IMG/VR virus record: IMGVR_UViG_3300005529_001092 | Coordinates: 1 to 35,543 of that record | Reading direction: 5' to 3' (one strand) | DNA length: 35,543 bases | Source of the DNA: a virus | Shown here: positions 11,339 to 30,404 of the stretch, in pieces | How the letters are laid out: each line of letters opens with the position of its first letter | Position numbering within the stretch: position 1 is the first letter of the stretch | Position numbers and translations under genes: made by a program | The notes under the pieces: generated by a model | The model's database searches: none | Told to the model about the DNA's origin: nothing | The model's input: only the letters and a program-made list of their open reading frames with translations

Positions 11339-11812
11339 ATGGCAACCGATGTGATGGAAATTTCAGATCGTCGCGCGATGACGATCAAGGCTGATGCAGA
11401 GGCGCTGACGGGAACCGAACCCGAAGCCACCGAACCGCAACCTGCGATTCAGACCGTGGCCGAAGTGGATCGCGTGTACGGCGACCCGCTGCCGATCTTT
11501 GACCGCATCTTGATCAAACAGGGTGCGCCGGAAACTACGTGGGGAGAGAGCCGCATCGTGATTCCGGACTATGTGCAGAAGGCGCCGAACATGGGCGCTG
11601 TGGTGGCGTGCGCCAAGCATTACATCGTGGATGGCAAAGCGTTCCCGATGGATGAGCTGGTAAAGCCGGGCGACCTGGTGACCTTCTCCAAGTTCAATGC
11701 CGAGGAGATCGAGCGCGACGGAGAAACCTACGTTCTGTGCTCTGTCTTCGATGTGAAGCTGATTGAGTCTGTATCGTTCGCCCTCGGGGTGAGCCATGCA
11801 AGCGGCCTCTAA
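11339..11812 (+). CDS. GroES-like co-chaperonin (Cpn10 family)
   Basis: 157 residues. About 47-148 follow the Cpn10 pattern strand by strand: PLPIFDRILIKQ, then GESRIVIPDYVQKAPNMGAV (the equivalent of GIILPD...P..G.V), VKPGDLVTFSKFNAEEIERD and GETYVLCSVFDVKLIES at the end. The first 45 residues are an extra polar arm absent from bacterial GroES. The mobile-loop region between KQ and RIVIPD is short (GAPETTWGES). It would cap a GroEL ring to help the capsid protein fold, as gp31 of T4 does. It lies directly behind the major capsid gene with an excellent ribosome binding site, and no GroEL is seen here, so host GroEL is the likely partner. Confidence 0.85.
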   Translation: MATDVMEISDRRAMTIKADAEALTGTEPEATEPQPAIQTVAEVDRVYGDPLPIFDRILIKQGAPETTWGESRIVIPDYVQKAPNMGAVVACAKHYIVDGKAFPMDELVKPGDLVTFSKFNAEEIERDGETYVLCSVFDVKLIESVSFALGVSHASGL

Positions 11813-12509: not shown

Positions 12510-12511
12510 AC

Positions 12512-13318
12512 ATGCCAGTTATCGAGAGACCCGATTTAGCGGAAACACGGGCCGAGAGCCTGAACGACAGCATCACGCCGAATACTCTGACATCGAGCAA
12601 CGACACCTTTGGTGCGCCGAAGGTGGAGATTTACGTATATAACGTAGCGAAGTTCGGCTGGGATTCGCGCGACGGTATTTCGCGACCACCGAATCATCCG
12701 CATCTGACCATCGCGCCCTGCCCTGAAGATCAGGATTACGTGCTGGTGGGACGCTTGCAGCACCCTTACCCGGAAATCTGGTACGACCAGAACAATGAGC
12801 GGCAGGTGCGCCACGTGGACGGATACCGCGAGGCCACCAAGATGCTATCACCGCGCAATCCGGGGATCGATCAGAACTGGGATGCGGAAGACGGAATCAA
12901 TCGCTTCGACAACTTGAATGCGCTGGGCGTCTTTTGGTCCAAGCACAATCCTCCGCTCGATTCCGAAGTGAAAGCAGCCACGGCTCGCCTGGAGAAAACA
13001 TTCCGCGCCGAGCTGGTGAGCATGAACAAGATTGAGCGCGAGAATCCACAGGAGGCGCCAGCGCGGGCCAACAAAATCTCACGCGCTGCGGCCGAATATT
13101 TCGGCACGCCGCGGTCATGGCACCAGTTCGACTTGTCGGCGCGCCAAGCAACGGGTGGCCGAGTTCCCTGCCCCAATTGCGCGGAACCGATCGTAACCGG
13201 AGCGGCTGTGTGCCGGCATTGCGATGCGGTGCTGGATGAGGAGAAAGCGCGACAGTTTTATCCCGACCGGTTCAAGAATCCGGTGGGCAGGCCGCGCAAC
13301 ACAGAAGCGGCGGTGTAA
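12512..13318 (+). CDS. Hypothetical protein with C-terminal zinc ribbon, 268 aa
   Basis: ATG 12512 has AGGAAGGA about 9 bases upstream. The first 170 residues look globular (VEIYVYNVAKFGWDSRDG, later PEDQDYVLVGRLQHPYPE). Near 220-240 there is a CPNC...CRHC zinc-ribbon pair followed by a basic tail ending GRPRNTEAAV. Similar ribbon-tailed proteins occur beside the preceding gene type in other phages, but no function is known to me. It lies in the head region and may be a structural or assembly factor. Confidence 0.7.
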   Translation: MPVIERPDLAETRAESLNDSITPNTLTSSNDTFGAPKVEIYVYNVAKFGWDSRDGISRPPNHPHLTIAPCPEDQDYVLVGRLQHPYPEIWYDQNNERQVRHVDGYREATKMLSPRNPGIDQNWDAEDGINRFDNLNALGVFWSKHNPPLDSEVKAATARLEKTFRAELVSMNKIERENPQEAPARANKISRAAAEYFGTPRSWHQFDLSARQATGGRVPCPNCAEPIVTGAAVCRHCDAVLDEEKARQFYPDRFKNPVGRPRNTEAAV

Positions 13319-13324
13319 CAACCT

Positions 13325-14698: not shown

Positions 14699-17600
14699 AT
14701 GGCCCACAACGTCAAAGGTCGCGGCACGGCGGTCCTCGATACCATGTCGGGGACCGTTTCTTTGGCTCAACCGGAAAGCATCCCGGAGGGCGGCAGCCCG
14801 CGCAACCAAAATTGCACCTTCGCGGTCGGCACGGTCGCGACGCGGCGGTCTCTGCAGAATCAGTATTCGTTTCAGGGCAGCAGTGTCACCAAATTGCCGG
14901 CCCATGCAGTCTCTACACCTAACGGCGCATCGGAGCCGTGGACGAACCCCGCCGGCGTTGAAGGGGCATCCAGTTTTGCCACTGTGTCATTCGGCCCCGG
15001 CACTCAAACGCGCAACCCGGCTACGGTGGTTTCGAGCGGCGCGGGTATCCCTTGGAATAATGCGCAGGATGCCGCCTCGGGTGGGGTGGGCAGCGACGAA
15101 ACCGCTGTCATTATCGGCTTTTCGATCACCGCCAATGTGGTGAGCTTCACGCTGGCCCCGATGACGACGCCCTTTGTCGCCGGACAGCCGGTGACAATCT
15201 TCAATCTCCAAAATGGGACTTATCTCAACACGCACGTCTTGACAGTCCTTTCCTCGGGGCTAAGTGATACCACTTTTGAGGCGAGCTTTACGCATGCCGA
15301 TGTGGCGGCAACCACTGACGCAGGCGTAGCAATACCCAGCACAGCATTTGCCTCTGCCATCAATGAGGGGTTGGTGCCGCCGGTTGGTCAGTATGTCGCC
15401 TTTGCGTCGCCGGCAGGATCGGATAGTGGACCTGTTTCTACCGGCGGCGGCTGTTTCGGCGACATCTTTTTCTTTCATGTATGGATGAATGGCGTAACCG
15501 GCGTAAACGGTTGCCCCTTCGGCGGCGGAACGATCGGCACCACCAGCTCCACTTTCGTAGCGCCGCAGTTGCCGCCCGGAGCTGTCGTGCAGGCCATCAT
15601 CCCGGTAGTGAAAGGCACGACTTACGACAATAGCGCGTTTGCCTTTCAGGAGTTCTCTTACACGACGCCATCAGGCACATCGGCTATGACGCTGGATGGG
15701 ACTCTTCAACAAGGCTCTAGTCTCGGAACGGACCTATCGATACTGAGCAGCCTCACCTTTAGGATGAGCGCGGAGAGCACCCAAAACGAACTCCCTGGAG
15801 TATCGCGGACTTTTGGGTCAAACATCCAATTCTTCGGCGTAGCGATTCTTTACACTGCACCATCCCCTACGCCGGCGACGCAGCTACAAAACCTGGATGC
15901 TTCTGATTTTGGCTTTACCGTTGGGTCAGGTGCACTTTCCGGCGTACAGGTTAATTTCGATGCCGGCATGCAGTTCGGAACCGCTGCCACGCTCATAGCG
16001 CAGCTCACATTGGGCGGCGTGCCAGTGGGAACGCCCAAACTCATCAGCGCGGGGCCGTGGGCTACGAGTTACACCCTTGGCGGACCTACCGATCTATGGG
16101 GCCTGTCGTCGCTGACAGGAGCCCAGGTAAATGATCCCAGTGGTATCGGCATCATCATCAGCGGCACATTGCTCGATGGATCTCAGGTTGATCTCAACAA
16201 TCTGAGCATGACGATTGATTTCCCTTCTCCGACGACTGCGGATTTCCTCGACGCCACACAGTACGGATTTAATCTGACGACGCCGGTTACAGGCCTCGCC
16301 GGATCGTTTGCCGGTTCGGGCTCTGGGCAAATCTCTGTGCAGTTGCTTATGAACGGAGCGCCGGTCGGGACCGCCAAGCAATTCACGTTGCCTGGCAGCA
16401 CTGCTATCGTCACTTTTGGCGCGCCCACCGATACTTGGGGCCTTGGCGGCTTCACGGATGCACAATTGAATGCCACCACATTCGGATTGCGCTTTGCTCT
16501 GGTGTCAGGCACAAGCGCCAGCATCCAAGATGCGCAACTTGTCGCATGGATCGCGCCCGCCGCAGCCAACTTCGATTACGTAACCACGTTCGAGGATAGC
16601 TTTGGCAATATCTTCACGCTTGCGCTCGACTCGAAGGGCGATTTCTGGATTGAGGATGTGCTCAACAATCCGAACGTGCTTACGCCCTTGTTTGAGGGCA
16701 TGCCGAATAACAGCTTTGCCTCATCGTTCACGGCAGACTCGCGCCAGTTTATCGCAATCTCGAATCTGCTTGCAGGCAACTATCCGCCACAGAGCTATGG
16801 TCAGTATCGCGACCGTGTTTCACAGGTGGGTCCGGGCGCAGCGCCCGCCTTTGCCGGCACACTGACCAGCGGCGCAACGGCTAACATCACCGCCTACTCT
16901 GCCTCGGGAAGCACGCTGACACTTACAGCCGCCAATACATTCTCTGCCGCCGAAGTGGTGACCATTCAGGCAAGCAGCGGCGATCCACTTTTCCCGCTCA
17001 ACGGACTCAGCTTCAATGTGCTAGGAGCGGGGCTTTCCCCTACGCAGTTTGAAATCTCAACTTCCGCCATTACGGGTAGCGGCAGCTCGACCGCAACCGC
17101 TATCGGCACGTACACCTATCCCATTGCGGCATCTCCAAACGGCATCACACAGTTTCCTTTCTGGAATCAGGCGCAAGGATATCAGTCGCAGTTCGATGAC
17201 ATTCTGTGGAGCGCGGGGCCGGGCTCAACCTCATCAGGCAACGTCATCACGATCTATTACCTGCAGGGCAGCCATGGATTGCCAGATGCCAATCTGGTGG
17301 CCGCCGTGCAGGCGCAAAAGTTCCCGGTCTATGTCTACGTCTCGGGTTGCACCAATCAGCCGCGGGCGAATGGCACATGGCTGGTAACGAGCGTGGGTGT
17401 GGGAACGCCGCCCGGCGGCGCCGCGACGCGCTGGTACTTCACTTTCAACATCAACGAAACCGGCTATCAGAACGAGGGCAGCGGCGCTAACTCTGCACCG
17501 GGCCAGTATCAAATGACGGTGGCGACACTGACCACCACGCTACCGCTGCCGGGCGTGGCAACCGGCGATTCCATCACAGTTTCCGGCGTTCCGGTGACCT

Positions 17601-20119
17601 CGTGGAATAACACTTGGCCGATCGTGGATTCGCTAAACTCGGGATCATACTCGATTTCGCAGACCTCGATGGATTCCTCGGGCACGGCTACCTATAACTG
17701 GGCTCTGGCGGGCAGCACATCGGCCGCGCCGCAGCCGGGCCAGCTTGTGACGGTTACGGGAACGCTGAACGGGAATGGTGTCTTCAATGTCACAGACGCC
17801 GTGATTGCCACCGTAACGGGATCTTCGTCGGGAACTTTCACCATCACCGGATTTGCGCCGCAGGTGATCACGTCGCAGGTGGAGTCCGGACAGGCTACAA
17901 CTTCGGGCACGCAATTCCAGATCGACCCCGGCGCGTTGACGCTGAACAGTTCAGATAATCCGATCTACGGCAACTCGGGCGGCGGCTATGTGACGCTGGT
18001 TGGATCAACTTCAGTGGTCATCGCACCCGGCACGCGCAAGGGCACAGTTTTCTTTATCACCCGCAATGGCTATTGGACAGCGCCCGCGCCTCCGGTGCAA
18101 TTTACCGTAGCGCGCAACTCAAATTACATCAAAGTCTCGAACATCCCAATCGGGCCGCCCAACGTGATTGCGCGCGGCATTGCGCTTACCGAGGCGGGGC
18201 AGAATGGGCAGCCGGGAGCCAGCTTCTACACGATCCCTGAGCCGGTGCAGTATGTCTTCAACGGAATCACGTATCTTTCGTCTTCGCTCATCATCAATGA
18301 CAATTCGACTACGAATGCCCAGTTCACTTTTCCCGATTCTGTACTTTTAAATGCAGAAGAGATTGACATCCAGGGTAACGATCTTTTCAACCTGACAGAA
18401 CTGGGTGATTCGGCCTGGTGCACCCAGTATCACGGCCGCAGCGTATGGGGCAGGGTCAGCAACAAAGTCCCGAACTTCCTCAATATGAGCTTCGACGGGG
18501 GATATAACCCCAACCCAGCCGGAAATCTGTTGCCGCTTGGCTGGGGCGCTGACCTTACCACGATGCCGTTCAACTCGCAGCCGACGTTGCTGGTGTCACC
18601 GATCTTTGGCAACTCATGGTACATCCTGAACCAGACAGGCAGCCCGGCGGCAGCGCTGGGGCGCATCACGCAAAGCGCTTACCGCGACTACAACAACGTT
18701 GCTATCCTGCAGCCCGAGATTGCTTACTCTGTGCGTGTGACATGCCGCACGCCCGGTGGCGCAACCGTGGGCGCGCTGGTGGTGGACCTGACCGGAGCGA
18801 ATACCGGGAACGGCTACGGAAACACTTATGGCACCTTCACGCTGAATACGAGCGCCATGACTACGGCCATGGCGACTTATAGCGGCACGCTGCTGACAAC
18901 ACCGTTTGCGAGCGTACCCACGGACCTGGTACTGCGCGTGTGGGCAGCGAATCTGGCTGCAGGCGGCGACATTGAAATTGATCGCATTGAGATTTTTCCC
19001 ACCATTGCGCCGGTTAACCTGACCGGGCTCACGATGAGCTACAAGAACGACTGGGAATCGTTCGACCTGGTGACAGGCGGTACCGATACCAACACAGTGA
19101 ATGCGCAGCCAGCCAACGGCGCTTTTGTGATTCACGATCAGCTTTACGTGGTGAAGGAAAGTTCGCTGGGCTACCTGAGCGATACGCCTAATCAAGAGCC
19201 GGCCAACTGGAACCCTTTCCGCGAAGTCTCAAACGTGGCGGGAGCCGCCGGAATCAACGCCTTCGACGTGGGCGAGGAATGGGCCATCATGGCCTGCCAG
19301 AACGGCCTCTATGCGTTCAACGGCGGCGCTCCGGTGCCGATGCATCAGGAAATCCTTGAGATTTGGCGATCGATCAACTGGAATTATGGGCACACCATCT
19401 GCGTGCGCAACGATGTGGCGAATCGACATATTCTGATTTCGGTGCCGATGGCTACGCCGAATCAATGGTGTCCGGATTTCCCGGTGAACGCGAATCCGAC
19501 CGCGCCCAATGTGGTACTGTGCCTGGACTACAAGGGCATCGAGACTATCGAAGAACTGATAGGGGCCGCGCCAATCCACATCACCATGATGGGTCAGATG
19601 GCGGTTCACGATCTGCGCCGCAAGTGGTCTCTGTGGTCAATTACTTCGCCGTACATGGCGGTGTGTAAGCGCAGCGAATTGCTCAGCGAGATGCTCGTCT
19701 GCTCCGGTTTGGGCGATGCAGCGCTGTCGTCCTTTGCGAATCTTATCCCCGGCGCCGACAACGGCGTACCGTTCACGCACAGCTATTGCACGTATGGGTT
19801 TGTGGATGAGAAGAAAGCAGAGCAGAACCCGATGCTCGGGCAGTGGAATAAGCGGTATGCGTGGTGGGATGCGATTCTGCGCGGACAGGGCAAAGGCACG
19901 CTGACTTTCTTCCAGAACATTCTCGCAGCGCCATTCCCGTGGACGGTGCCGGGTGGTGTTACGCTGACCGACCCCGCCCCGAATGACCTCTCCGGGCCGC
20001 TGAACGAATATGCGATGCGGCTCTTTGTTGAATTCAAAATGAACGGTCTGAATACGCGCTTTAGCTGGCAATGCATGCGGCTGGCTGCGAATCCAGACCC
20101 ATGGCAACCAATCAGGTAA
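14699..20119 (+). CDS. Giant tail or nozzle-type virion protein, 1806 aa
   Basis: The start MAHNVKGRGTAVLDTMSG and PESIPEGGSPRNQNCTFAVG followed by TRRSL resemble the N-terminus of phage nozzle or packaged-DNA-stabilising proteins. The C-terminal about 350 residues (VIHDQLYVVKESSLGYLSDT, then EEWAIMACQNGLYAFNGG and ISVPMATPN) look like their beta-propeller core. Between these lie inserted modules: a beta module at about 137-212, two tandem related domains of about 100 aa at 399-503 and 517-618 (each with a V.L.L.G.PVGT.K......PTD.WGL core), and further beta modules near 729-805 and 1010-1065. The insertions explain the unusual length. The ATG has no clear ribosome binding site. It probably forms the tail tube/tip with host-facing domains. 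Confidence 0.7.
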   Translation: MAHNVKGRGTAVLDTMSGTVSLAQPESIPEGGSPRNQNCTFAVGTVATRRSLQNQYSFQGSSVTKLPAHAVSTPNGASEPWTNPAGVEGASSFATVSFGPGTQTRNPATVVSSGAGIPWNNAQDAASGGVGSDETAVIIGFSITANVVSFTLAPMTTPFVAGQPVTIFNLQNGTYLNTHVLTVLSSGLSDTTFEASFTHADVAATTDAGVAIPSTAFASAINEGLVPPVGQYVAFASPAGSDSGPVSTGGGCFGDIFFFHVWMNGVTGVNGCPFGGGTIGTTSSTFVAPQLPPGAVVQAIIPVVKGTTYDNSAFAFQEFSYTTPSGTSAMTLDGTLQQGSSLGTDLSILSSLTFRMSAESTQNELPGVSRTFGSNIQFFGVAILYTAPSPTPATQLQNLDASDFGFTVGSGALSGVQVNFDAGMQFGTAATLIAQLTLGGVPVGTPKLISAGPWATSYTLGGPTDLWGLSSLTGAQVNDPSGIGIIISGTLLDGSQVDLNNLSMTIDFPSPTTADFLDATQYGFNLTTPVTGLAGSFAGSGSGQISVQLLMNGAPVGTAKQFTLPGSTAIVTFGAPTDTWGLGGFTDAQLNATTFGLRFALVSGTSASIQDAQLVAWIAPAAANFDYVTTFEDSFGNIFTLALDSKGDFWIEDVLNNPNVLTPLFEGMPNNSFASSFTADSRQFIAISNLLAGNYPPQSYGQYRDRVSQVGPGAAPAFAGTLTSGATANITAYSASGSTLTLTAANTFSAAEVVTIQASSGDPLFPLNGLSFNVLGAGLSPTQFEISTSAITGSGSSTATAIGTYTYPIAASPNGITQFPFWNQAQGYQSQFDDILWSAGPGSTSSGNVITIYYLQGSHGLPDANLVAAVQAQKFPVYVYVSGCTNQPRANGTWLVTSVGVGTPPGGAATRWYFTFNINETGYQNEGSGANSAPGQYQMTVATLTTTLPLPGVATGDSITVSGVPVTSWNNTWPIVDSLNSGSYSISQTSMDSSGTATYNWALAGSTSAAPQPGQLVTVTGTLNGNGVFNVTDAVIATVTGSSSGTFTITGFAPQVITSQVESGQATTSGTQFQIDPGALTLNSSDNPIYGNSGGGYVTLVGSTSVVIAPGTRKGTVFFITRNGYWTAPAPPVQFTVARNSNYIKVSNIPIGPPNVIARGIALTEAGQNGQPGASFYTIPEPVQYVFNGITYLSSSLIINDNSTTNAQFTFPDSVLLNAEEIDIQGNDLFNLTELGDSAWCTQYHGRSVWGRVSNKVPNFLNMSFDGGYNPNPAGNLLPLGWGADLTTMPFNSQPTLLVSPIFGNSWYILNQTGSPAAALGRITQSAYRDYNNVAILQPEIAYSVRVTCRTPGGATVGALVVDLTGANTGNGYGNTYGTFTLNTSAMTTAMATYSGTLLTTPFASVPTDLVLRVWAANLAAGGDIEIDRIEIFPTIAPVNLTGLTMSYKNDWESFDLVTGGTDTNTVNAQPANGAFVIHDQLYVVKESSLGYLSDTPNQEPANWNPFREVSNVAGAAGINAFDVGEEWAIMACQNGLYAFNGGAPVPMHQEILEIWRSINWNYGHTICVRNDVANRHILISVPMATPNQWCPDFPVNANPTAPNVVLCLDYKGIETIEELIGAAPIHITMMGQMAVHDLRRKWSLWSITSPYMAVCKRSELLSEMLVCSGLGDAALSSFANLIPGADNGVPFTHSYCTYGFVDEKKAEQNPMLGQWNKRYAWWDAILRGQGKGTLTFFQNILAAPFPWTVPGGVTLTDPAPNDLSGPLNEYAMRLFVEFKMNGLNTRFSWQCMRLAANPDPWQPIR
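15924..15936 (-). repeat. 13-bp box, reverse copy inside giant tail gene (one mismatch)
   Basis: GGTCAGGTGCACT differs from the reverse consensus at the first base only. It is located in the first of the two tandem domains. Confidence 0.5.
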
Positions 20120-20122
20120 GGT

Positions 20123-20698
20123 ATGGCGACACCGGCAGGAAGTCTCGACGGCGGCAGGCTGCTCAACGAGGTGGCGTTGAAAGATCCTCGCCTTGGGCAA
20201 CTTCTACAAAACGTGATCGACGGAATCAACCGGCTGGGGCTGAATGTGGGTGCGTCTCCGGTGGGCGATGTGACGCCGCCAAAGCCGCCCGATTCGGTCT
20301 CGGTGAAGGTGTCGGGCGAGATGATGCACATCTCCATCAATCACGCGGGGGAACTAAACCGCGGCGTGCGGTACTTCTCGGAAATATCGACTTCGCCGTC
20401 TTTCGGGCAGCCTATCGTGATCGACCACGGCACCAGCCGCACGTCACATCCGATCCCGCTACCAACACAGGATGACAGTAGCAGTCCGGTTACATACTAC
20501 GTGCGATCGTATGCGCAGAATCCGGGAGGCCCGCCGTCCGCGCCGACCGTGGTGGGCGGCATTGGCTCGCCTACAGGATTCACCATGACCGGCGGCACCA
20601 AAATGACGTTGCTGCCATCGACCGGCAGCGGCACGGCACCCAGTACCGGCCAGAGCGCTGGACAAGGCATGGGACGGTTTCAAAAGAGGCAATCATGA
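20123..20698 (+). CDS. Fibronectin type III-like virion protein, 191 aa
   Basis: ATG 20123 follows the giant gene by three bases. The N-terminus is helical (LDGGRLLNEVALKDPRLGQL), then from about 55 there is a single FN3-like beta sandwich (PPKPPDSVSVKVSGEMMHIS, with VRYFSEISTSPSFG, ending TYYVRSYAQNPGGPPSAP). The tail is Gly/Thr/Ser-rich. FN3 domains on phage virions usually mediate weak surface contacts. The layout suggests a small accessory protein attached to the tail. The end overlaps the next start by ATGA. Confidence 0.72.
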   Translation: MATPAGSLDGGRLLNEVALKDPRLGQLLQNVIDGINRLGLNVGASPVGDVTPPKPPDSVSVKVSGEMMHISINHAGELNRGVRYFSEISTSPSFGQPIVIDHGTSRTSHPIPLPTQDDSSSPVTYYVRSYAQNPGGPPSAPTVVGGIGSPTGFTMTGGTKMTLLPSTGSGTAPSTGQSAGQGMGRFQKRQS

Positions 20699-21093
20699 TT
20701 GTGCGCGATGCGACATTTGAGGACAGCAGTACCATTTCGGAAATTCACGCCGCAATGGGGCTTGACTACCGCTTACCCGATCTGAACTCGCCCCTATTCT
20801 TCGTGCGCAAGGTGGCCGAGCGGGATGGAATCGTGCGCGGGGCATGCTTTTTGCGGATTTGTGCCGAATGCTATCTGTGGCTTGCGCCCGAGCAAACTGC
20901 ACCTGATAAAATGAGAACCATGGAAGCCTTGCAGCCTGAAATTCTGCGCGCTGCTTGGGCGAAAGGCCTTGACGATATCGAGGCCCGCATTCCTGAGACC
21001 CTAGAACGCCGCTTTCATAAGCGCCTGACGCAGCTTGGATGGACGGCTAACCGCAATGGTTGGCACCCATGGTCTAGGGAAACATATGCGTGA
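20695..21093 (+). CDS. GNAT-like phage protein, 132 aa
   Basis: The beginning MIVRDATFEDSSTISEIHAA and the following DYRLPDLNSPLFFVRKVAER, GIVRGACFLRICAECYLW match small acetyltransferase-fold proteins often found in tail or lysis regions of phages. The fold looks reduced: I cannot see a clear acetyl-CoA loop (Q/RxxGxG/A), so catalysis is doubtful. The C-terminus is a Trp-rich segment (LGWTANRNGWHPWSRE). A forward 13-bp box with an extended -10 (TGATAAAAT) lies inside at 20896-20912, seven bases before an in-frame ATG at 20920, so a shorter internal product of 57 aa is conceivable. Confidence 0.7.
   Translation: MIVRDATFEDSSTISEIHAAMGLDYRLPDLNSPLFFVRKVAERDGIVRGACFLRICAECYLWLAPEQTAPDKMRTMEALQPEILRAAWAKGLDDIEARIPETLERRFHKRLTQLGWTANRNGWHPWSRETYA
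20896..20912 (+). promoter_or_regulatory. 13-bp box with extended -10 inside CDS
   Basis: ACTGCACCTGATA overlaps TGATAAAAT (TGn plus TAAAAT at 20907-20912). ATG 20920 follows after seven bases, in the same frame as the GNAT-like gene and with the same geometry as the small terminase promoter. It is an internal promoter candidate for the genes from 21086 onwards. Confidence 0.4.
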
Positions 21094-21637
21094 CGCAGCC
21101 AATGCGGCGTTGAATGCCGCCAAAACAGCCTCTACAACCGCTGGACAGTACGGCTCGACAGCCGCCGGCATCGGCGCGAACCTGGTGCCCTTTCTGACGC
21201 GCCAGATGACCAATCCGCAGGGCATGAGCCAGCAGGATATCGGTGCGCAGTTGACGAGCGAGCTTGCGGGCACGGGCGGCGCAACCTCTGGCCTGACCGG
21301 TGCGGCCAATAAAATGGCTACCGTCACGCGCAACCCGATGGGCTTCTCGGCGGCGCTCGATGCGGCGGCACGCACGGCTGACAAGGCGAATGCGGGCGCG
21401 GGTGAAAGAATTGCCGCCAACAATGCCAACATCAAACTCCAGCAGCAGAACGAGGCCGCGCAGCAGCTTGGCGGCCTGTATGGAACCGCGGGCAGGCTTG
21501 GCGTGGAATCGCAGGGGCAGGTTGCGCCGGATGTGAACGCGGCGGCTGATGCGAATAAGACCGGATGGCTGCAGAACATGACGGATATTATCGGTTCGCT
21601 GTCGGGTGCTTCAAAGGGACCGATGAAATACGTCTGA
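21086..21637 (+). CDS. Candidate internal virion protein, 183 aa
   Basis: The start chosen is ATG 21086 (MRDAANAALNAAKTASTTAG), with AGGGAA about 7 bases upstream; the longer form from 21035 would overlap the previous gene by almost 60 bases. The protein is extremely rich in Ala, Gly, Asn and Gln, almost all helical, without cysteine and without a typical TM segment. In podovirus-like phages, such low-complexity helical proteins after the tail gene are often internal or ejection proteins. No motif confirms this. Confidence 0.55.
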   Translation: MRDAANAALNAAKTASTTAGQYGSTAAGIGANLVPFLTRQMTNPQGMSQQDIGAQLTSELAGTGGATSGLTGAANKMATVTRNPMGFSAALDAAARTADKANAGAGERIAANNANIKLQQQNEAAQQLGGLYGTAGRLGVESQGQVAPDVNAAADANKTGWLQNMTDIIGSLSGASKGPMKYV

Positions 21638-21644
21638 GGCTACG

Positions 21645-22985
21645 ATGGCGCTGACTGATCTCCTGCCTAACTCGAATGATCCGCTGAATCTGAACGCTCC
21701 GCGTGTGTCCGCATTGCGTCCGGTTGGCCCAGAGCCTACGGCACCGGTGAATATGGGCGATGCGCCTATGCCGCAGTTGCCCACGCTTCGGCCCTTAGTG
21801 ACTAGCCCGCGCGAGCAACAGATTCAATCATTGACGCAGAAGATTAACGCATTCGAGAATCCTGGACCGTCGAAGCCTGGATTCTGGCACCGGCTCGGGC
21901 AGATTTCAGCCAGGATCGGCAACATTGCGGGCGATGTGGTTGCCCCGCACACGATGGAACTTATCCCCGGAACGCAATTGAATCGCGAGATGCAGCACCA
22001 GCAGAATTTGGCTGAGCGCGCCGGTTTGCAAAAGCAGGATTTGGACGAACAGAACGCAGCGAGCGAGAATGCTTTGCGCGGCGCACAGACGGCGGAAATT
22101 CCAGCGCGGGCCAACCTGGAGAATGCCGAGGCCGACAAAGACCGGGCGGCGGTGGCGAACGGCCCGGACCTCGCCACGGCCTATGCGCACCGGGTCAATC
22201 AGGTGCTTAGGGAAAACGGCGATCCCTCCACAGATCCGACAGTGATGTATTTACAGCACGCGATCACAGATATTCAGCGGAAACCTTTGCCGAAGGGGCT
22301 TGAGAAAGTTGACCTCGTTGGTCCGGATGGCAAGCCGATGGCGGCTAACTATGACCCCGCAAAGGGCGTTTATACCGATGCGTCCGGCAAGGTTATCCCG
22401 AATCCGAGGCCATACGAAAAGCCGAACCAAGCTGGCATGGTTACCGTGGTTGCCCCAGATCCCAATAACCCCGGCGGCGGTATTGTCGAGCGAGTAGGAG
22501 CAGGCGCGCATTTAGCGCCGGGCTCCATGACGGCATCGCAGTACGGCGTCGGCGCTGCGGCGGATGTGAAGCAGGACAAGGCGCGCAAGCAGGCGGCAGA
22601 AGAGGCGCAGAAAGACTACAAGCTGATGCAGACTCTTGCCGCCAATCCGTCGCCTACAAACGATCTTGCCATGGTGATGCACTACATCGGCGCGACCAAG
22701 CCGGACTCCATCGGCAAACTACGACTCAACCAGAACGAAATCGCTCTCGTGATGGGAACGCGCAGCAGCTTTGGCGATCTTGAGGCGATGGAAGAGAAAG
22801 TGCGCAACGGGCAAAAGTTGACGCCCGAGCAGCGCAACAACATGCTGGAGACCATGCGCATTCTTTCCGCGTCGTCAGGCGATACGGGCGGTGGACCGCA
22901 GATGATTCGGGCGCGCGATCCGCAGGGTGTGTTGCACGAAGCCCCGGCGGGCACGCCGCTGCCGGCGGGATGGAAGGCTGAATAA
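21645..22985 (+). CDS. Candidate internal or ejection protein, 446 aa
   Basis: ATG 21645 has TGAGG 7 bases upstream. The N-terminal 80 residues are Pro-rich and extended. A strongly helical segment (LNREMQHQQNLAERAGLQKQ and QDLDEQNAASENALRGAQTA) follows at about 105-160, then a Gly/Pro-rich middle, and a second helical region (KQDKARKQAAEEAQKDYKLM). The C-terminus is a short beta-like piece. Long coiled-coil segments with low-complexity linkers and the neighbourhood suggest a protein carried in the capsid and ejected with DNA. This is inference; no lytic transglycosylase motif is visible. Confidence 0.55.
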   Translation: MALTDLLPNSNDPLNLNAPRVSALRPVGPEPTAPVNMGDAPMPQLPTLRPLVTSPREQQIQSLTQKINAFENPGPSKPGFWHRLGQISARIGNIAGDVVAPHTMELIPGTQLNREMQHQQNLAERAGLQKQDLDEQNAASENALRGAQTAEIPARANLENAEADKDRAAVANGPDLATAYAHRVNQVLRENGDPSTDPTVMYLQHAITDIQRKPLPKGLEKVDLVGPDGKPMAANYDPAKGVYTDASGKVIPNPRPYEKPNQAGMVTVVAPDPNNPGGGIVERVGAGAHLAPGSMTASQYGVGAAADVKQDKARKQAAEEAQKDYKLMQTLAANPSPTNDLAMVMHYIGATKPDSIGKLRLNQNEIALVMGTRSSFGDLEAMEEKVRNGQKLTPEQRNNMLETMRILSASSGDTGGGPQMIRARDPQGVLHEAPAGTPLPAGWKAE

Positions 22986-23956
22986 TGGCGGGCTGGGTTG
23001 TAGTTCCGAATGGCGACACCTCCGCATGGAAGCCTGTGCGGGAGGCGAGCGCACCCGTGTCCACGCAGCCAGAGGATACGCGCAATGATGCCCAGCGCAC
23101 ATTCGACAGCGCCACCAAATCAGTTCCCATCGACCTGACGCATGGATTGGGGAATGCGCTCAACTCCACACTCGGCAATCTGGGGGGCGGCGCTCTGAGC
23201 TTGGCGGCCCCGCTCTTTCATCCGATTGCCACAGCGCATGGCCTACGCGATTTGGTGACGCCGCAGAGCGCAACCGAGCAGGGCGCTTCGTTCCTCGGGC
23301 CGGGAATAGTCCCGATGCTGCATATGGCTTCTTCGGCGGTTAATGCGGTGAAGCCGAAACAAGGTGAAACGTTCGGCCAGAATGCAGCCCGCGCTGGCGG
23401 TGAAGCTATCTCGGCAATTCCGGCTGCGACGGCCGCGGCATTTGGAGACGAGGCTGCCGGTCTACGTGATCTGATACCCACCAAGGCGGGCGCTGGCCGT
23501 TTGTTTGAGTCGGTCATGAATGATGCCGCCACGCAACCGGTAAAGCTGACGCGCTCTATGGAACCCCTGGAGCGCGCACAGCAGATTTCTGCGCGCGGTG
23601 GCAACACTGTATCAGCGGTCGACAATCTCTACAAACGCATCAACACGATCAACCCACTGGATTACCGGGAGGCTCGTGATTGGGCTTCTAACCTTTCCCG
23701 ACTTTCAGGTCAAGATGCTATGAACGCCTCGCCGGCCCTGAGGGCTCAGATTGGCAAACTATCGCATGCGTTCAATGAGGATGTAGGGGACGCGGCAGCG
23801 GCGGTTGGACGCGGTGAGGATTACGCCAAAGCTATGCGCGACTATGCGCGCGCCGCCAAACTGAGCGATCTTTTCGATACTGTGAAGAAACATGCAATTC
23901 CGGCGGTAGCGGGTGGTGGTCTTGTGGCTGCAGGCCTGAAGGAGCTGCTGAAATGA
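22985..23956 (+). CDS. Candidate internal or ejection protein with hydrophobic ends, 323 aa
   Basis: ATG 22985 shares its A with the previous stop. A Gly/Ala/Leu-rich amphipathic region (LGNLGGGALSLAAPLFHPIA) lies at about 65-84, and a hydrophobic segment (HAIPAVAGGGLVAAGLKELL) closes the protein. The middle is helical, with an RLSGQDAMNASPALRAQIGK helix and an ARDWASNLSRLSG segment. Membrane-active helices in a protein of the late operon fit a role in making the DNA passage through the cell envelope, but no family motif is visible. Confidence 0.55.
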   Translation: MAGWVVVPNGDTSAWKPVREASAPVSTQPEDTRNDAQRTFDSATKSVPIDLTHGLGNALNSTLGNLGGGALSLAAPLFHPIATAHGLRDLVTPQSATEQGASFLGPGIVPMLHMASSAVNAVKPKQGETFGQNAARAGGEAISAIPAATAAAFGDEAAGLRDLIPTKAGAGRLFESVMNDAATQPVKLTRSMEPLERAQQISARGGNTVSAVDNLYKRINTINPLDYREARDWASNLSRLSGQDAMNASPALRAQIGKLSHAFNEDVGDAAAAVGRGEDYAKAMRDYARAAKLSDLFDTVKKHAIPAVAGGGLVAAGLKELLK

Positions 23957-24136: not shown

Positions 24137-24922
24137 ATGCCACCTTATTTGAACTCGACTTTCGGACCACCGTACAAGAAGACGCTGCGCATGCAGTACG
24201 GCGTTGTGCCGATCTACCTGTTCGGCCGCAAGGATTCGCAGACTAACCCCTTTGTTTTCAAGGTGACTCAGGTTGCGCTCACCTCGAATGTGGCGACGCT
24301 AACAGTGCAGCTTGTCTCGGGCGGCGGCGGGGCTCCCAACGACTTTCCGGCATCGCCGCAGGTGGGCCAGAACCTCAGCGTTCTCGGCACGCAGACAGCC
24401 AGCGGCGCGTTCAACGTGGGCTTTACACAGGTCACGGCATCCACGGTTGACCCGACGACCGGCGCGGGCACGATCAGCTTTGCGCTGATGCACGCCAACG
24501 TGGGCGCAACCGCCGACTCGGGGCAGCTTGTGCTGGAACCGCTCGAAATCCCCGATCTGGTTGACAGCGTGACGGCATCCATCCCGGTAGCGCAGATCTT
24601 CACGCCCGATGACAGCGACAACTCACGCTGCATCTTCGCTGAGGCCAAATGGACCGGAACCTTGCCGACTAGCGCAACGATCAAGCTGCAGGTTGCCAAC
24701 GTAGACGAAGACTCGCGCTATCAAGTGGTGCAGAACTCCTACGGGACAGCCCCGGGTGCGATCGTGGCCCAGAGCGATTCACTAGCAACCGTGGCGGCAG
24801 GCGCTGTCACTCAGTCAGGCGCACAATACCAATACATCATGGGCAAGTTCATCCGCGCGAAGATAACGGCCATCACGGGTGGCGACAATACGACCGGGCT
24901 CATCTTAACTTTGTTCGGCTGA
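24137..24922 (+). CDS. Beta-rich virion protein, 261 aa
   Basis: ATG 24137 has AAGGAG 8 bases upstream. After a short N-terminus (MPPYLNSTFGPPYKKTLRMQ), residues 35-135 carry the same beta module seen in the giant tail protein: a variable strand (LTSNVATLTVQLVSG), VGQNLSVLGTQTASGAFNVG, then FALMHANVGATADSGQLVLE. The second half is another beta sandwich with DDSDNSRCIFAEAKWTG. No signal peptide is present, unlike the next four genes. It is probably a tail or fibre-base component. Two reverse 13-bp boxes lie near its end. Confidence 0.65.
   Translation: MPPYLNSTFGPPYKKTLRMQYGVVPIYLFGRKDSQTNPFVFKVTQVALTSNVATLTVQLVSGGGGAPNDFPASPQVGQNLSVLGTQTASGAFNVGFTQVTASTVDPTTGAGTISFALMHANVGATADSGQLVLEPLEIPDLVDSVTASIPVAQIFTPDDSDNSRCIFAEAKWTGTLPTSATIKLQVANVDEDSRYQVVQNSYGTAPGAIVAQSDSLATVAAGAVTQSGAQYQYIMGKFIRAKITAITGGDNTTGLILTLFG
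24813..24825 (-). repeat. Recurrent 13-bp box, reverse copy
   Basis: AGTCAGGCGCACA has an intact 10-bp core, near the 3' end of the beta-rich virion gene. It is followed 112 bases later by another copy. Confidence 0.55.
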
Positions 24923-24949: not shown

Positions 24950-26227
24950 ATGCGTGGATTGGCATTACTTTCGTGTTTTCTGGCGCTGCCATTAGCGGTA
25001 TCAGCCCAGTACGGCCGCATGGACTTCTCGCTGCAGAGCGCACAGGGCCAGGCGATTGCCGGGGCTACGGTGAACGTGTACACGCAGCCATCTTGCGGGG
25101 CCGCGGCGGGCGGGTTGGCAACACTCTACCCGGCGGCGACGGGGGGCACACCGCTTACGCAGCCGCTCTCTACGGATGGCTTTGGATCAGCCTTTGCCTA
25201 TGCCGCACCGGGATGCTACACGGTTGTCTACTTCAGTCAGTTTACCGGCACACGGACATTTGCCGATCAGGTGCCGGCGACGAATGGCGCGAGCATCTCA
25301 TTGAGCACGCTTGGAACTGGCGGCGCGTCGACGCTGATCGGGTCGCTTCTCAACATCCCGCAGTATCAGAGCCAAATCTCGCTAACAACCACAGGCACGA
25401 GCGGAGCGGCAACTTTGACCGGGGCCGTCATCAACATCCCTCAGTATCAGTGTGCGCTTACGCTGACCACAACGGGAACAAGCGGCGCAGCCACATTGAG
25501 CGGATGCACGCTGAATATCCCGCAGTACACGGGCGGCGGTGGCGTTAGTGGGCAGGCAAGCGGCGTCATCGGCCTCGCCACAAACGCGACTACAACCGGG
25601 GCCCAATCGCATATCGATGAAAACACGGCTGGTCAGGACACGGTCAATCAAAGACTGGCGGTCAATGATCCTTCGGACCCCACCGAATGGATCCTTACGC
25701 CTACTTCTCATGCGTGTGCGCTCATAACCGGAGCCTTTTCGATTTGCCCGTCCGATAGCCTGTCATCTGGCAGCGCTCTGCAGGGCCCCGATGCTCCCGG
25801 TTCTGGCGATCAGATTATCTACGTGACCAATACTGCCGGCGTGATGAAGATCAAGTTTGTTACGCCAGGCCCGGGATTGTCATTTTCCGGTGGCACGCTG
25901 TCGGCCCCGTTCTCCTGTCAACCTGGTTTAGGGGATGGATTGAATGCGATCGCTGCGGGAACCTATCTTCAGTCCACATGCAAGAACACCAGCGGTGTGA
26001 CCATCACGATCCACGGCATCCAGTGCTTCACGGACAACAATGGGTCGAGCACAATGAATGTAACGAACGGGGCCGGAACCGGATTGCTCACTGGCGCGGT
26101 CACCTGCTCAAACAGTTTTGCGGCTGGTACGCAGAGCGGAACAACGACTATCGCTAGCGGTGATTATTTCAAGTTCACTTTTGTGGCTGATGGCACCAGT
26201 AAGCAAACGACATGGGTGATATTTTGA
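24950..26227 (+). CDS. Tail-fibre-like protein with Sec signal peptide, 425 aa
   Basis: The N-terminus MRGLALLSCFLALPLAVSAQ is a classical signal peptide with cleavage after SAQ or SA. A fibre-type N-terminal domain follows (AQGQAIAGATVNVYTQPS, then LSTDGFGSAFAYAAPGCYTV). Three tandem repeats of about 25 residues come next, ending in LNIPQY, INIPQY and LNIPQY and including TGTSGAATL, a motif typical of phage fibre shafts. The C-terminal third is a beta domain. Ten cysteines outside the signal, an even number, suggest disulfides and hence an extracytoplasmic location. A secreted fibre encoded in a virion operon is unusual. Confidence 0.7.
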   Translation: MRGLALLSCFLALPLAVSAQYGRMDFSLQSAQGQAIAGATVNVYTQPSCGAAAGGLATLYPAATGGTPLTQPLSTDGFGSAFAYAAPGCYTVVYFSQFTGTRTFADQVPATNGASISLSTLGTGGASTLIGSLLNIPQYQSQISLTTTGTSGAATLTGAVINIPQYQCALTLTTTGTSGAATLSGCTLNIPQYTGGGGVSGQASGVIGLATNATTTGAQSHIDENTAGQDTVNQRLAVNDPSDPTEWILTPTSHACALITGAFSICPSDSLSSGSALQGPDAPGSGDQIIYVTNTAGVMKIKFVTPGPGLSFSGGTLSAPFSCQPGLGDGLNAIAAGTYLQSTCKNTSGVTITIHGIQCFTDNNGSSTMNVTNGAGTGLLTGAVTCSNSFAAGTQSGTTTIASGDYFKFTFVADGTSKQTTWVIF

Positions 26228-27015
26228 TGCGCACTCTCATTGCGATGATGTTGATTTCCTCGTGCCTGTCTGCGTCGGCGCAAATTGTAAACACCGGGCG
26301 GCATCGCGGGTTATTTACACCTACCGGTACTACAAATCACGCGCGGCAATTCAATGGCACGAGCGACTCACTACAGTCCGCATCCCCTCTTTCTTCCTTG
26401 AGTGGCGTTGGGACCGTGAGCCTCGCATTCTGGATGTACTGGGATGCCTTCGCGAATAACGATGAACTAGCTTTTGAATCTTCGGCGAACTATAACTCGA
26501 ACAATGGAGCTTTTCTCGTTGACCCTAATACTTCGGGAGGTGGCGGCGTAAGCGCAGGAGTCTTCCAATATTCGGTCAACCTTGCCGGTGCTGGAGTGCA
26601 TCTTGATTGCGCTTTTACGCGACCATCCGCTGCGGCGTGGCATCAGTATGTGCTCATCCTCGACGCGACGTCAGGATCCTGCGGAGCTTATGTAGACGGC
26701 GCGGTTCCATCCGGACTGACTACGGTCAACTCGCACACGGGAACTTTTTCAAGTCAGACGCTCAACGTGATGAGCCGTAATAATGCGTCTCTGTTTGGGG
26801 CTGGGCGTATGTCTGAGATATCGGTCTTTAGTGGAACCATCAATTCTTCTGACGCATCGCTACTTGCCGCCTGCGGTCGTCCCACCTCTGTATCCAGCGC
26901 TTCGCTTCTCTACTACTGGCCTATCAATCAGACCTCTCCCGAAACGCCGACGACAGGAGGCATCAACCTTACTGTTAACGGCACAACCAACGTGGCAAGC
27001 CTATGCTCATTTTAA
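26227..27015 (+). CDS. LamG/concanavalin-like secreted protein, 262 aa
   Basis: The start chosen is ATG 26227, at a TGATG junction with the previous gene; an upstream in-frame ATG gives five extra residues. The signal peptide is MRTLIAMMLISSCLSASAQ. The mature part is one jelly-roll domain of the LamG/concanavalin type (HARQFNGTSDSLQSASPLSS, VSLAFWMYWDAFANNDELAF, WHQYVLILDATSGSCGAYVD, GRMSEISVFSGTINSSDASL). Four cysteines in the mature part. This fold usually binds glycans or surface polymers. It is probably a surface or fibre-associated adhesin. Confidence 0.75.
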   Translation: MRTLIAMMLISSCLSASAQIVNTGRHRGLFTPTGTTNHARQFNGTSDSLQSASPLSSLSGVGTVSLAFWMYWDAFANNDELAFESSANYNSNNGAFLVDPNTSGGGGVSAGVFQYSVNLAGAGVHLDCAFTRPSAAAWHQYVLILDATSGSCGAYVDGAVPSGLTTVNSHTGTFSSQTLNVMSRNNASLFGAGRMSEISVFSGTINSSDASLLAACGRPTSVSSASLLYYWPINQTSPETPTTGGINLTVNGTTNVASLCSF

Positions 27016-27023
27016 GGAACATG

Positions 27024-28526
27024 ATGAAGAGACTTATCGCTTTGATTCTCCTCGCCACAATGCCGATCCTAGCGCAAAGCGGGCGCGGTTCTATCAGGGG
27101 AGAGGGAAGAATATCTTCCGGAGTGAGCGCGATCAATTCGGGCAGCGGAATCATCGGGTTGATCGACGGGAGCTACAATTTGGCATTCAACGACTCGAAT
27201 AACGTAATCGAGGGAATGCGCTTCGTCAATTCTCAGTTCCAGCAGAAGTCGCCTCTCCCGAATGCCGCAGCGGATTCGTGTACGTCTGTCTATAACAACA
27301 AAATCTACATTATAGGCGGCTATGGAACTTCGAGTTCCACCCAACTCGACTTCGTGCAGATCTACGATCCTACGACTGATATATGGACCCAGGGGTCGGT
27401 TCTCCCTGTGGCGGAATGGGGCGCTGCTTGCGCGGTCTATAACGGCAAAATTTACCTGTTCGGCGGAGTCGTAAGCGGAGGCGGCGGAGGGGGCGGCGGA
27501 ACCGCGAACGCTTACCTCTATGACATTGCCGGTGATTCGTGGTCGTCTCTCACATCGCTGCCTTCTGCCATCCCCGACGGCATGATGGGGGTCACAGTGG
27601 GCAGTGATATTTATCTGCTCTTCGAATCGAATTTTTGGCGGTTTGACCCATCTGCAGCAGGAGGCATGGGCTCCTACACTGCGCTTACGGCGGCGCCAAC
27701 GGCAGCGCAGGTCCAGTGGGCAGCGACGGGCTATGTAAACGTGAGCGGCGATGATCGCATTTACTTCATCGGCGGCAGCACGAGCGCAGGCAGCGGATAT
27801 GGCAACGGTAACTACTATTACAGCGTGACGAATTCGGCCTGGAGCGGTGCGCAAGCGGCTGCTCCGTTCAGCGCCCATGGTCAACTGCAGGGAGCCGTAC
27901 TGAGCGGCCAAATTTATTACATCGCCGGCTACGATGGCACCGTGTTTTGGTCTGATCTGTACGCTTATAATCCATCCACGAACTCGTGGTCTTCAAAGTT
28001 GGCCACAATGAGTCAATGGCGCGATGGAGTCGCGGGCGGATTCTACGGCAACACGATCTATGTCATTGGTGGTAGAAACGCGAATGCGCCGAATGCTTTC
28101 GGGATCTCCGCAAACGAGGCTTACCAAGTCGGATCAACCGTGATTCCGCAAACCTTCACAAAGATCCAATTGCATTACAGTAGTCCTTCCGGCGGGAACG
28201 TCCATCTCGGCATCTATTCCGATTCGGGAGGAGCTCCAGGCTCGCTCATTCTTGACGCTGGTGCTGTGTCGATTGTGAACGGATGGACGGCGATCACGGG
28301 ATTGAGTTTGTCGTCATTGACTCTGGGCACTAACTATTGGCTGGTTTTTTTGCAGGACTCATTCAACAATATTTCGTACACATCAGGAGCTCCGTCAGGT
28401 TCTGTGGCCGGCGCACACTGCTCAACTACCGGTACTTCCTACGGGTCGTTACCGTCTACGTTTCCGGCTGTTGGAATGACGTGTCAGGTGGGATCGATGT
28501 ATGCCGAAAAGTTGTCGGTCAACTGA
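27024..28526 (+). CDS. Kelch-type beta-propeller secreted protein, 500 aa
   Basis: The start chosen is the second of two adjacent ATGs (27021 and 27024), AAGGA being 5-6 bases upstream of it. Signal peptide MKRLIALILLATMPILAQ. The body carries six kelch-like strands, each of the IYIIGG type (KIYIIGGYG, KIYLFGGVV, DIYLLFE, RIYFIGGST, QIYYIAGYD, TIYVIGGRN), so a six-bladed propeller at about 65-370. A C-terminal beta domain follows (about 375-500). Four cysteines in the mature part. Kelch propellers often bind carbohydrates or proteins. The 3' end overlaps an antisense small gene by 8 bases. Confidence 0.78.
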   Translation: MKRLIALILLATMPILAQSGRGSIRGEGRISSGVSAINSGSGIIGLIDGSYNLAFNDSNNVIEGMRFVNSQFQQKSPLPNAAADSCTSVYNNKIYIIGGYGTSSSTQLDFVQIYDPTTDIWTQGSVLPVAEWGAACAVYNGKIYLFGGVVSGGGGGGGGTANAYLYDIAGDSWSSLTSLPSAIPDGMMGVTVGSDIYLLFESNFWRFDPSAAGGMGSYTALTAAPTAAQVQWAATGYVNVSGDDRIYFIGGSTSAGSGYGNGNYYYSVTNSAWSGAQAAAPFSAHGQLQGAVLSGQIYYIAGYDGTVFWSDLYAYNPSTNSWSSKLATMSQWRDGVAGGFYGNTIYVIGGRNANAPNAFGISANEAYQVGSTVIPQTFTKIQLHYSSPSGGNVHLGIYSDSGGAPGSLILDAGAVSIVNGWTAITGLSLSSLTLGTNYWLVFLQDSFNNISYTSGAPSGSVAGAHCSTTGTSYGSLPSTFPAVGMTCQVGSMYAEKLSVN

Positions 28527-28656
28527 ATTTGTCATCCCATGCTCGCTTTGGCGGAATCCCACGGCAAACATCGAACAAGAACCAGACGAACCCGATAGGC
28601 CAGAGAATCAGGCGACTTAGAAATTTCCAGAGGCGGATGCGGGTTTCAAACTGCAT
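28519..28656 (-). CDS. Antisense small membrane protein, 45 aa
   Basis: Read leftwards from ATG 28656 in the gap between the kelch and lipoprotein genes. The N-terminus is basic (MQFETRIRLWKFLSRL), then one aromatic-rich membrane helix (ILWPIGFVWFLFDVC) and a polar tail (RGIPPKRAWDDKFS). No good ribosome binding site is seen. A TAAAAT hexamer 18 bases upstream of the ATG is a possible -10. The size, one-helix layout and orientation parallel the 41-aa gene at 23957-24082, and both end in an acidic/aromatic tail. It may be a chance frame, but the parallel raises confidence. Confidence 0.5.
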   Translation of the reverse strand: MQFETRIRLWKFLSRLILWPIGFVWFLFDVCRGIPPKRAWDDKFS

Positions 28657-28690
28657 GGCGCAAGGGTAGCAGAAATTTTAAGGAGGAAAG

Positions 28691-29236
28691 ATGAAACGAT
28701 TGATCTTGTTAGCTGCAACTTTAGTGTTAAGTGTGGGGTGCCAAGCTCAACTTCCGCCGACAACCTGGCAGGTGGCTGTGACTTGGCAGGCGCCGCAGGC
28801 GAATACAAATTGGGCGGGTTGCACGGCGCAGAACCCGTGCACTTATGCGGTAAGCCGGATTGCGGTGGCCTCGGGAACCATCTGCCCCACGCCTTCAGGC
28901 GGAAACTACGCGCTGGCCGGCAACTCGGCTTCACAGGCATTGAACTTTCTCGACACCGCAGTTACTCCCGGCACGAGTTACTGCTATCTCGTACAAACGC
29001 AGCAGGTGATTCCGCCAGCGACTCAGCCAGCGACGTCGAGTCCCTCGAATACCGCTTTCATCGCGGTGCCCGCAAACCCCGGACCTCCGACCGCACCATC
29101 TTTGACACCTTCAACTCAAAGCACGCAGACGGGATCGGTTGAAAAGCCGATGCCTGAGCCGACGTCGGCAGTCGCTGGTAAGCCGAGTTCCGCCCCGGTC
29201 GGCCTGGTAGCAGTCGTTGTGAAACAAAAGCGCTAA
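28691..29236 (+). CDS. FN3-like lipoprotein, 181 aa
   Basis: ATG 28691 has AAGGAGG 6 bases upstream. The N-terminus MKRLILLAATLVLSVGCQAQ is a lipoprotein signal with lipobox LSVGC (Cys17), so it is probably an outer-membrane or inner-membrane lipoprotein. An FN3-like beta domain (WQVAVTWQAPQANTNW, later ALNFLDTAVTPGTSYCYLVQ) contains four cysteines in two likely disulfides. The end is a Pro/Thr/Ser-rich tail ending VVVKQKR. It is the fourth exported protein in a row. Surface receptor, exclusion factor or virion accessory are all possible. Confidence 0.7.
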   Translation: MKRLILLAATLVLSVGCQAQLPPTTWQVAVTWQAPQANTNWAGCTAQNPCTYAVSRIAVASGTICPTPSGGNYALAGNSASQALNFLDTAVTPGTSYCYLVQTQQVIPPATQPATSSPSNTAFIAVPANPGPPTAPSLTPSTQSTQTGSVEKPMPEPTSAVAGKPSSAPVGLVAVVVKQKR

Positions 29237-29241
29237 TATCC

Positions 29242-29568
29242 ATGGCAATTTTTGACAATCCGAGAGACCTGCTGGAGCGGCTGGATGAGATTGCCGCGCA
29301 GGGCCGTCAGAATGCTTCCAATCTGGAACTAATCAGCACGAAGCTGTTCGGCTCCGAAGAAGACCATTTTGCGGCTGGCAGGCTACCTGTGCTTGAGCGC
29401 GGCTTAGAGTCTCTTACCGCTCGACTTGGAGCCATGGAACACAACGACGCGCGGCTACAGGGGCAGCGTAAAGCCTGGAGCGGCGCGCTCTCGTTTGTCG
29501 GTAAGGCAATTCTCGCAGCGGGCAGCGCGCTTATGGGCGCCGTCTTCGGAGCACATTTTCACAAATAG
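29242..29568 (+). CDS. Coiled-coil protein with C-terminal TM helix (holin-like), 108 aa
   Basis: A long amphipathic coiled coil (NPRDLLERLDEIAAQGRQNA, LERGLESLTARLGAMEHNDA) is followed by a polar basic stretch and one C-terminal membrane helix (SFVGKAILAAGSALMGAVFG), ending AHFHK. Coiled coil plus C-terminal TM is the layout of XhlA- or type-III-like holins, which act with an endolysin, but no endolysin is seen in the window. The ATG has no clear ribosome binding site. Alternatives are a membrane-anchored virion protein or a spanin partner. Confidence 0.55.
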   Translation: MAIFDNPRDLLERLDEIAAQGRQNASNLELISTKLFGSEEDHFAAGRLPVLERGLESLTARLGAMEHNDARLQGQRKAWSGALSFVGKAILAAGSALMGAVFGAHFHK

Positions 29569-29795: not shown

Positions 29796-30404
29796 ATGAA
29801 AAAGTTCTATCTGTTTTCTGGCCTAGCCCTGCTCGGCTTGGCTGCAACCGTATGCATGACTGGCTGCGCAGGATTGCCCCAATGGCTGGCGGACGCCAAT
29901 AACCTACTGCCGTTGTTTGTGGCGAGCGCCGGATCAATTCTGACAGCCATAGGCGTTCTGAGCGGCAATCCAGCCCTGGCGACTGGGGCCTCTACGATTG
30001 CTGGCATCGCCACAGAGGTGGAGGACAGTATAAAGGACGTGCAGGCTATGGTAGCTGCATATCAAGCCAATCCGGGGACCACAACCTTGGAAAAAGTTGA
30101 GAGTGCGGCACAGGCAGTCATTACCAGCCTGCAAAAGCTGTTGGGCGATTTTGGCATGCCTGCGGATAGCGTAGCCCCGTTTCAGTCGCTGGCTCAATTA
30201 TTGCTGACGCAGTTCGAGGCGTGGGTTTCCACTATCCAAAGCATCAAGACTGCTACAGAAAATTCAACCGGCCTACATGCGGCTCTTTTGGCTCATGCCG
30301 CAGTCGCCAAGCTGCCGCAGGTTCCGATGGATGCCGCGCATTACAAGCAAGCGGTCAATGGCCTAGTGTCCCAGTATCCCGACTCGGGACTGAAATCCAT
30401 CTGA
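29796..30404 (+). CDS. Lipoprotein, 202 aa
   Basis: The start is ATG 29796, with GAGGAGAG 6-7 bases upstream. MKKFYLFSGLALLGLAATVC leads into MTGCAG, a lipoprotein signal with two cysteines; the second (Cys24) is the likely lipidated one. A hydrophobic Ala/Gly/Ser-rich segment (LLPLFVASAGSILTAIGVLS) follows, then alpha-helical heptads (LEKVESAAQAVITSLQKLLG) and a C-terminal helical end. It is probably an envelope-anchored helical protein. Together with the two previous genes it could form a lysis or envelope cassette; it is not a typical spanin and no enzyme motif is seen. Confidence 0.7.
   Translation: MKKFYLFSGLALLGLAATVCMTGCAGLPQWLADANNLLPLFVASAGSILTAIGVLSGNPALATGASTIAGIATEVEDSIKDVQAMVAAYQANPGTTTLEKVESAAQAVITSLQKLLGDFGMPADSVAPFQSLAQLLLTQFEAWVSTIQSIKTATENSTGLHAALLAHAAVAKLPQVPMDAAHYKQAVNGLVSQYPDSGLKSI

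Follow-up and report, generated by a model that had tools for sequence, protein, structure and literature searches.

Why would a tailed phage place export signals on the proteins that look like its own receptor-binding parts? The question is raised by four consecutive genes in a 35,543-nt record of a soil-type phage (IMG/VR record IMGVR_UViG_3300005529_001092, hereafter the window), since standard accounts place assembly of every tailed-phage structural protein in the host cytoplasm. The original prediction described four fibre- or adhesin-like genes with Sec or lipoprotein signals and even cysteine counts, and this observation is confirmed here. The window holds a short-tail-type phage module, in which the four genes follow ejection-type genes and are themselves followed by a coiled/TM protein and a lipoprotein (Table 1). 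Predicted export signals on such proteins are found in this phage, in its relatives and in many unrelated phages, and the proteins carry paired cysteines as if folded outside the cytoplasm, which suggests that part of the virus particle is made in a different compartment and joins it late.

Table 1. Coordinates of the features discussed, in the window and in loci of other phages (L numbers designate viral loci, G numbers phage genomes).
Sequence	Position	Strand	Feature	Basis
Window	2705-4318		terminase	
Window	5280-7757		portal	position and size
Window	7754-8374		histidine-phosphatase/phosphoglycerate-mutase-like gene between portal and scaffold, an odd place for a metabolic-type enzyme	by eye; conserved in G013 (41%)
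Window	8387-		scaffold	
Window	9943-		major capsid protein (MCP)	position
Window	11339-11812		GroES-like co-chaperonin gene directly after the major capsid gene	PHROG 3188, 1.2e-8; conserved in relative G013 (38%)
Window	14699-20119		1806-aa protein	
Window	20695-21093		small acetyltransferase-like (GNAT-like) gene	by eye; kept in the tail module of most syntenic relatives (40-70% identity)
Window	21035-23956		ejection-type genes	position and composition
Window	24137-24922	+	conserved virion gene directly upstream of SP1 in the relatives	34-58% identical and followed by the SP1 orthologue in L255, L258, L259, L260 and L261/G013
Window	24950-26227	+	gene 1 (SP1), tail-spike/fibre-type receptor-binding protein	orthologues; tail spike match of the L260 orthologue C-terminal part
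Window	24950-25006	+	predicted Sec/SPI signal peptide of SP1	GGAG 8 bases upstream of the ATG; kept in 5 syntenic orthologues
Window	25007-25294	+	virion-anchor-like domain of SP1 (predicted tail-spike head-binding fold)	38-72% identical in 5 orthologues; structure model
Window	25292-25538	+	three GTSG..NIPQY fibre repeats in SP1	translation; motif shared with fibre genes in more than 200 viral loci
Window	26227-27015	+	gene 2, signal-bearing protein, lectin-like by weak resemblance	signal rule; 23% identity to a ctLwi270 protein; no Pfam hit
Window	27024-28526	+	gene 3, signal-bearing kelch propeller plus C-terminal domain	Pfam; homologue in L002
Window	28691-29236	+	gene 4, signal-bearing small protein	perfect AAGGAGG site; homologues in L245 and L227
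Window	29242-29568	+	coiled protein with C-terminal TM segment, first gene after the array	translation; a similar-looking but non-homologous coil/TM gene follows the array in L254
Window	29796-30404	+	probable lipoprotein next to the array (position suggests the lysis region)	MKKFYLFSGLALLGLAATVCMTG/C
L254 (G002)	5051-6136	-	signal-bearing DUF2961 protein inside the spike array, possible exported glycan-cutting enzyme; 3 Cys	
L002 (G001)	11818-12168		116-aa stand-alone protein (..DPEGNPLANGFLLFELSQDG..) that looks like a spike-anchor domain alone, without a signal, just downstream of the signal-bearing fibre and kelch genes; a possible docking adaptor	
L129	3614-4666		member of a recurrent low-GC family, MKQLLPLFLFLLPCLAWA/QYPSNGNQKITLGEQTTADGL.., with a signal	
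L241 (phage ctLwi270, MW202554)	206-997 and 12297-13322		'concanavalin A-like lectin' and 'tail collar domain' genes with signal-peptide-like N-termini, without Gln at +1	deposited complete podovirus genome

All four ORFs are present, although two starts deserve comment: gene 2 most likely begins at 26227, where its ATG overlaps the gene 1 stop as TGATG, rather than at 26212, and gene 3 begins at 27021 or 27024, behind AAGGA. The predicted signals are MRGLALLSCFLALPLAVSA/QYG, MRTLIAMMLISSCLSASA/QIV, MKRLIALILLATMPILA/QSG and MKRLILLAATLVLSVGCQA/QLP (slash, cleavage site). Signals were called with a simple rule of our own rather than SignalP (basic n-region, 8-residue uncharged hydrophobic core, -3/-1 site), which returned these four genes plus the lipoprotein at 29796 and no other ORF of 80 aa or more in the window. 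On internal Met codons the rule gives 4 false positives in 849 (0.5%), it calls none of 12 P22 structural proteins and it does call the P22 Rz1 lipoprotein. Shuffling each protein reaches the observed N-terminal hydrophobicity with p = 0.007, 0.022, 0.004 and 0.0007. A negative signal prediction for most of the four would have counted against the observation; start-site context, shuffling and the rule all came out in its favour. Every predicted site has Gln at +1, the pattern described as the Bacteroidetes Q-rule (PMC5837995).

The mature parts have 10, 4, 4 and 4 cysteines, as originally stated, whereas the claim of almost none in neighbouring virion proteins is true only of close neighbours: the nearest virion genes (24137, 22985, 21645, 20123 and the MCP) have 0-1, but the portal has 11 and the 1806-aa protein 14. 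The lipobox proposed for gene 4 (SVGC) is ambiguous, having Ser at -3, where an aliphatic residue is expected, and CQA/Q fits signal peptidase I equally well and matches the Gln at +1 of the other three. Of the domains proposed, kelch is solid (Pfam E = 5e-27; PF24681 95 bits, PF01344 82.5 bits), while LamG and FN3 gave no Pfam hit and remain unconfirmed labels.

Viral scans with gene 24137 and SP1 as single queries found nothing, but a scan with the 1806-aa protein and its homologue in the relative G013 returned twelve syntenic relatives. In L255/L256, L258, L259, L260 and L261 (which is G013) the homologue of gene 24137 is followed by an SP1 orthologue, in L260 after two further signal-bearing genes; L262 has no detectable SP1 homologue but has a protein there with a signal-like N-terminus. 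The six SP1 orthologues all have a signal, whose sequence drifts (mean pairwise identity 37%) ahead of a conserved anchor domain (mean 57%), and then part ways into unrelated C-terminal parts, one of which, in L260, matches PHROG 4636, tail spike protein (1.7e-15). A signal-less form from an internal start was considered and rejected, since Met24 of SP1 has no SD and is absent from most orthologues.

The domain directly behind the SP1 signal was modelled with AF2 at pLDDT 92.7 (a model from five distant sequences had reached only 43). Its top solved match is the tail spike of cyanopodophage Pan3 (Z 9.6), with P22 head-binding domains at Z 7.5-7.8, and among viral models (BFVD) it matches N-terminal domains of tail spikes/pectate lyases (E 3.5e-5, TM 0.8). 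The fold belongs to a common transthyretin-like group and non-phage proteins score nearly as well, so this alone is not proof. At the sequence level the link of the window's own anchor to solved spikes is weak: SP1 close orthologues alone give no significant PDB sequence hit and the profile-profile match to the anchor family has an hhalign probability of 13%. In other phages the case is plain. L154 and L102 carry a signal directly before a domain shared with the signal-less spikes L113/L073 (L154 is 48-49% identical to them), and the joint profile hits 7eeq 'Tailspike head-binding domain' at 2.8e-12; L102 also has a Pfam Collar domain, and the second signal protein of L012 has a Gp53-like tail-fibre C-terminus.

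For the other three genes, the 64% identical homologue of gene 3 in the otherwise unrelated 99-kb phage L002/G001 has a different signal of the same type and the same four cysteines, and sits right behind a signal-bearing fibre. Gene 4 has a signal-bearing homologue in that same phage (L245, 1.7e-8) and one in L227 (9.8e-8). The protein that gene 2 resembles, in phage ctLwi270, is itself signal-bearing and annotated as a concanavalin A-like lectin.

If the signals work, mature proteins meet an oxidising compartment and cysteines should pair, an even-Cys bias being a reported trait of exported bacterial proteins (PMC7678975). Over about 240 viral loci sharing the GTSG..NIPxY fibre motif, deduplicated signal (+1 Gln) proteins with at least two mature cysteines were even-numbered in 22 of 22 cases (p = 2.4e-7; 18 of 18 without the window's own), against 264:201 for signal-less proteins and 25:22 for signal-less motif fibres. 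With a cleavage choice that does not favour Gln the ratio is 31:6, and Gln is still found at +1 in 61 of 99. In the syntenic relatives the even:odd counts are 9:1 and 36:37 for signal-bearing and signal-less proteins, respectively, two of the nine repeating the first set. The anchor pair C49/C89 is present in the window and four orthologues and lost together in the sixth sequence. In loci of GC 0.44 or more, signal proteins have 1.45% Cys against 0.41% in signal-less motif fibres, but in low-GC (Bacteroidota-like) loci signal-bearing fibre proteins have almost no cysteine, so cysteine richness is not a general mark. These data bear on the possibility that the hydrophobic N-terminus is an uncleaved tail plug and that the proteins assemble in the cytoplasm, as classic tail spikes do. 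Cleavage here is predicted from sequence alone, but the even-Cys pattern of signal-bearing proteins only, the frequent Gln at +1, the short h-regions, the drift of the signal and the lack of a conserved internal start make this reading very unlikely.

Such arrays are not limited to this lineage. G002, a more distant relative (terminase 45% identical), has at least four clear signal genes in the same place, including a DUF2961 protein (GH172-like) whose 3 Cys are an exception to the even pattern, plus a small one with a doubtful signal. Fibrisoma montanum, a cultured Bacteroidota species, has tailed-phage-type modules with signal-bearing proteins after the tail genes at two places, identified by gene order and eye. 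Low-GC loci hold a large family (MKQLLPLFLFLLPCLAWA/QYPSNGNQKITLGEQ..) next to signal-less NIPxY fibres, often paired with a second signal gene (MRYLFLFLPLFSFA/QDVV..). The trait is not universal: related queries in annotated phages mostly hit generic fibre parts, and an isolated Leeuwenhoekiella phage and a crAss-like phage with related fibre parts have no signal. A scan of genome contigs with the terminase found nothing and a motif scan of genomes gave only two hits; GC 0.58 and Gln at +1 would fit an Acidobacteriota or Bacteroidota host, which is only a guess.

Taken together, we consider it somewhat more likely than not that the four genes are the phage's receptor-binding set, made as secreted proteins. 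What the sequences themselves establish is a cleavable-looking Sec signal at a real start site in each gene, its retention in SP1 orthologues, a tail-spike-type anchor fold (as modelled) directly behind the SP1 signal, a fast-changing C-terminal part and cysteines in pairs; export is thereby well supported. The remainder is inference, including presence in the particle: the proteins would cross the inner membrane by Sec, lose the signal to host signal peptidase I (usually exposing Gln), form disulfides in the periplasm and wait there or at the cell surface until lysis mixes the compartments, when the SP1 anchor would dock onto finished virions, with the lectin-like, kelch and gene 4 proteins binding with it or acting on host glycans. 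An anchor conserved behind the signal is hard to explain unless it still binds virions, and P22 spikes add spontaneously to finished heads in vitro as the last step. However, no route by which tailed phages mount periplasmic proteins is known to us, and we found no virion proteomics for any of these phages.

The main rival, which we regard as unlikely but not excluded, is that the proteins are exported without being virion parts and coat or modify the infected cell's surface, masking or destroying receptors to block superinfection or to stop progeny sticking to debris, the spike-like anchor then being an inheritance used for host-surface attachment. Signals and cysteine parity need only export, sugar-binding and enzyme-like folds (kelch, and DUF2961 in G002) suit surface glycans, and Porphyromonas gingivalis phages encode Q-rule signal proteins proposed to modify the host surface (PMC10367356). 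On the other hand, the array lies inside the virion module after ejection-type genes, the anchor is conserved while C-termini vary, which is the usual pattern of virion receptor-binding proteins, and no signal-less spike was seen at that place in these relatives. Less likely still, the same exported protein could mask receptors during infection and dock at lysis: nothing in the sequence separates the two uses and gene multiplicity (4-5 per array) would allow division of labour, but there is no positive evidence for masking in this phage. That these are cargo (moron) genes for the host's own adhesion or carbohydrate use is a remote possibility; kelch, lectin-like and GH-like folds are common in secreted bacterial proteins, but SP1 is syntenic in the lineage, neighbours conserved gene 24137 and has tail-spike homology, and no integrase was seen in the window. 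The original prediction, which proposed periplasmic or outer-membrane assembly of receptor-binding parts, host-surface remodelling or a decoy/exclusion system, is therefore supported in part: the anchor-type domain behind the signal favours the first, while a surface or exclusion role stands as an alternative.

A more general reading, which we hold only tentatively, is that some tailed phages build their particle in two compartments, head and tail in the cytoplasm and disulfide-bonded spikes exported to the periplasm, joined only when lysis brings the two together. Literature searches, confined to open-access text, found no report of signal-bearing tail spikes, and absence of a signal peptide has been used as support for a phage origin of receptor-binding proteins (PMC6199706). 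If receptor-binding proteins are routinely exported first, annotation pipelines will miscall them, work on these proteins would need to account for disulfides and export, and an unstudied last assembly step, with a possible self-exclusion role, becomes testable, for which the F. montanum prophages give a cultured starting point.

Among known systems, the closest are the tail spikes of P22 type (gp9) and of cyanopodophages Pam1/Pan3, which share the N-terminal anchor fold, the position after ejection-type genes and the variable C-terminal receptor-binding part. P22 gp9, however, begins with the anchor, has no signal and folds in the cytoplasm, whereas here a predicted Sec signal precedes the anchor and cysteines are paired and partly conserved, so that we file SP1 as a signal-bearing variant and not as a plain member. 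The Q-rule proteins of P. gingivalis phages (PMC10367356) are likewise phage-encoded with SPI signals exposing Gln, but those are of unknown function, while several of the present ones are identifiable tail-spike/fibre proteins at the receptor-binding locus. Phage surface-exclusion lipoproteins (Cor, Llp, Lom/Bor type) are also phage-encoded exported envelope proteins, yet they are small single genes outside the virion module, in contrast to an array of large fibre, kelch and lectin-like proteins inside it. Finally, kelch propellers occur in phage fibre gene clusters such as that of L004 (a 263-kb phage contig), where the kelch tail-fibre genes have no signal peptide.
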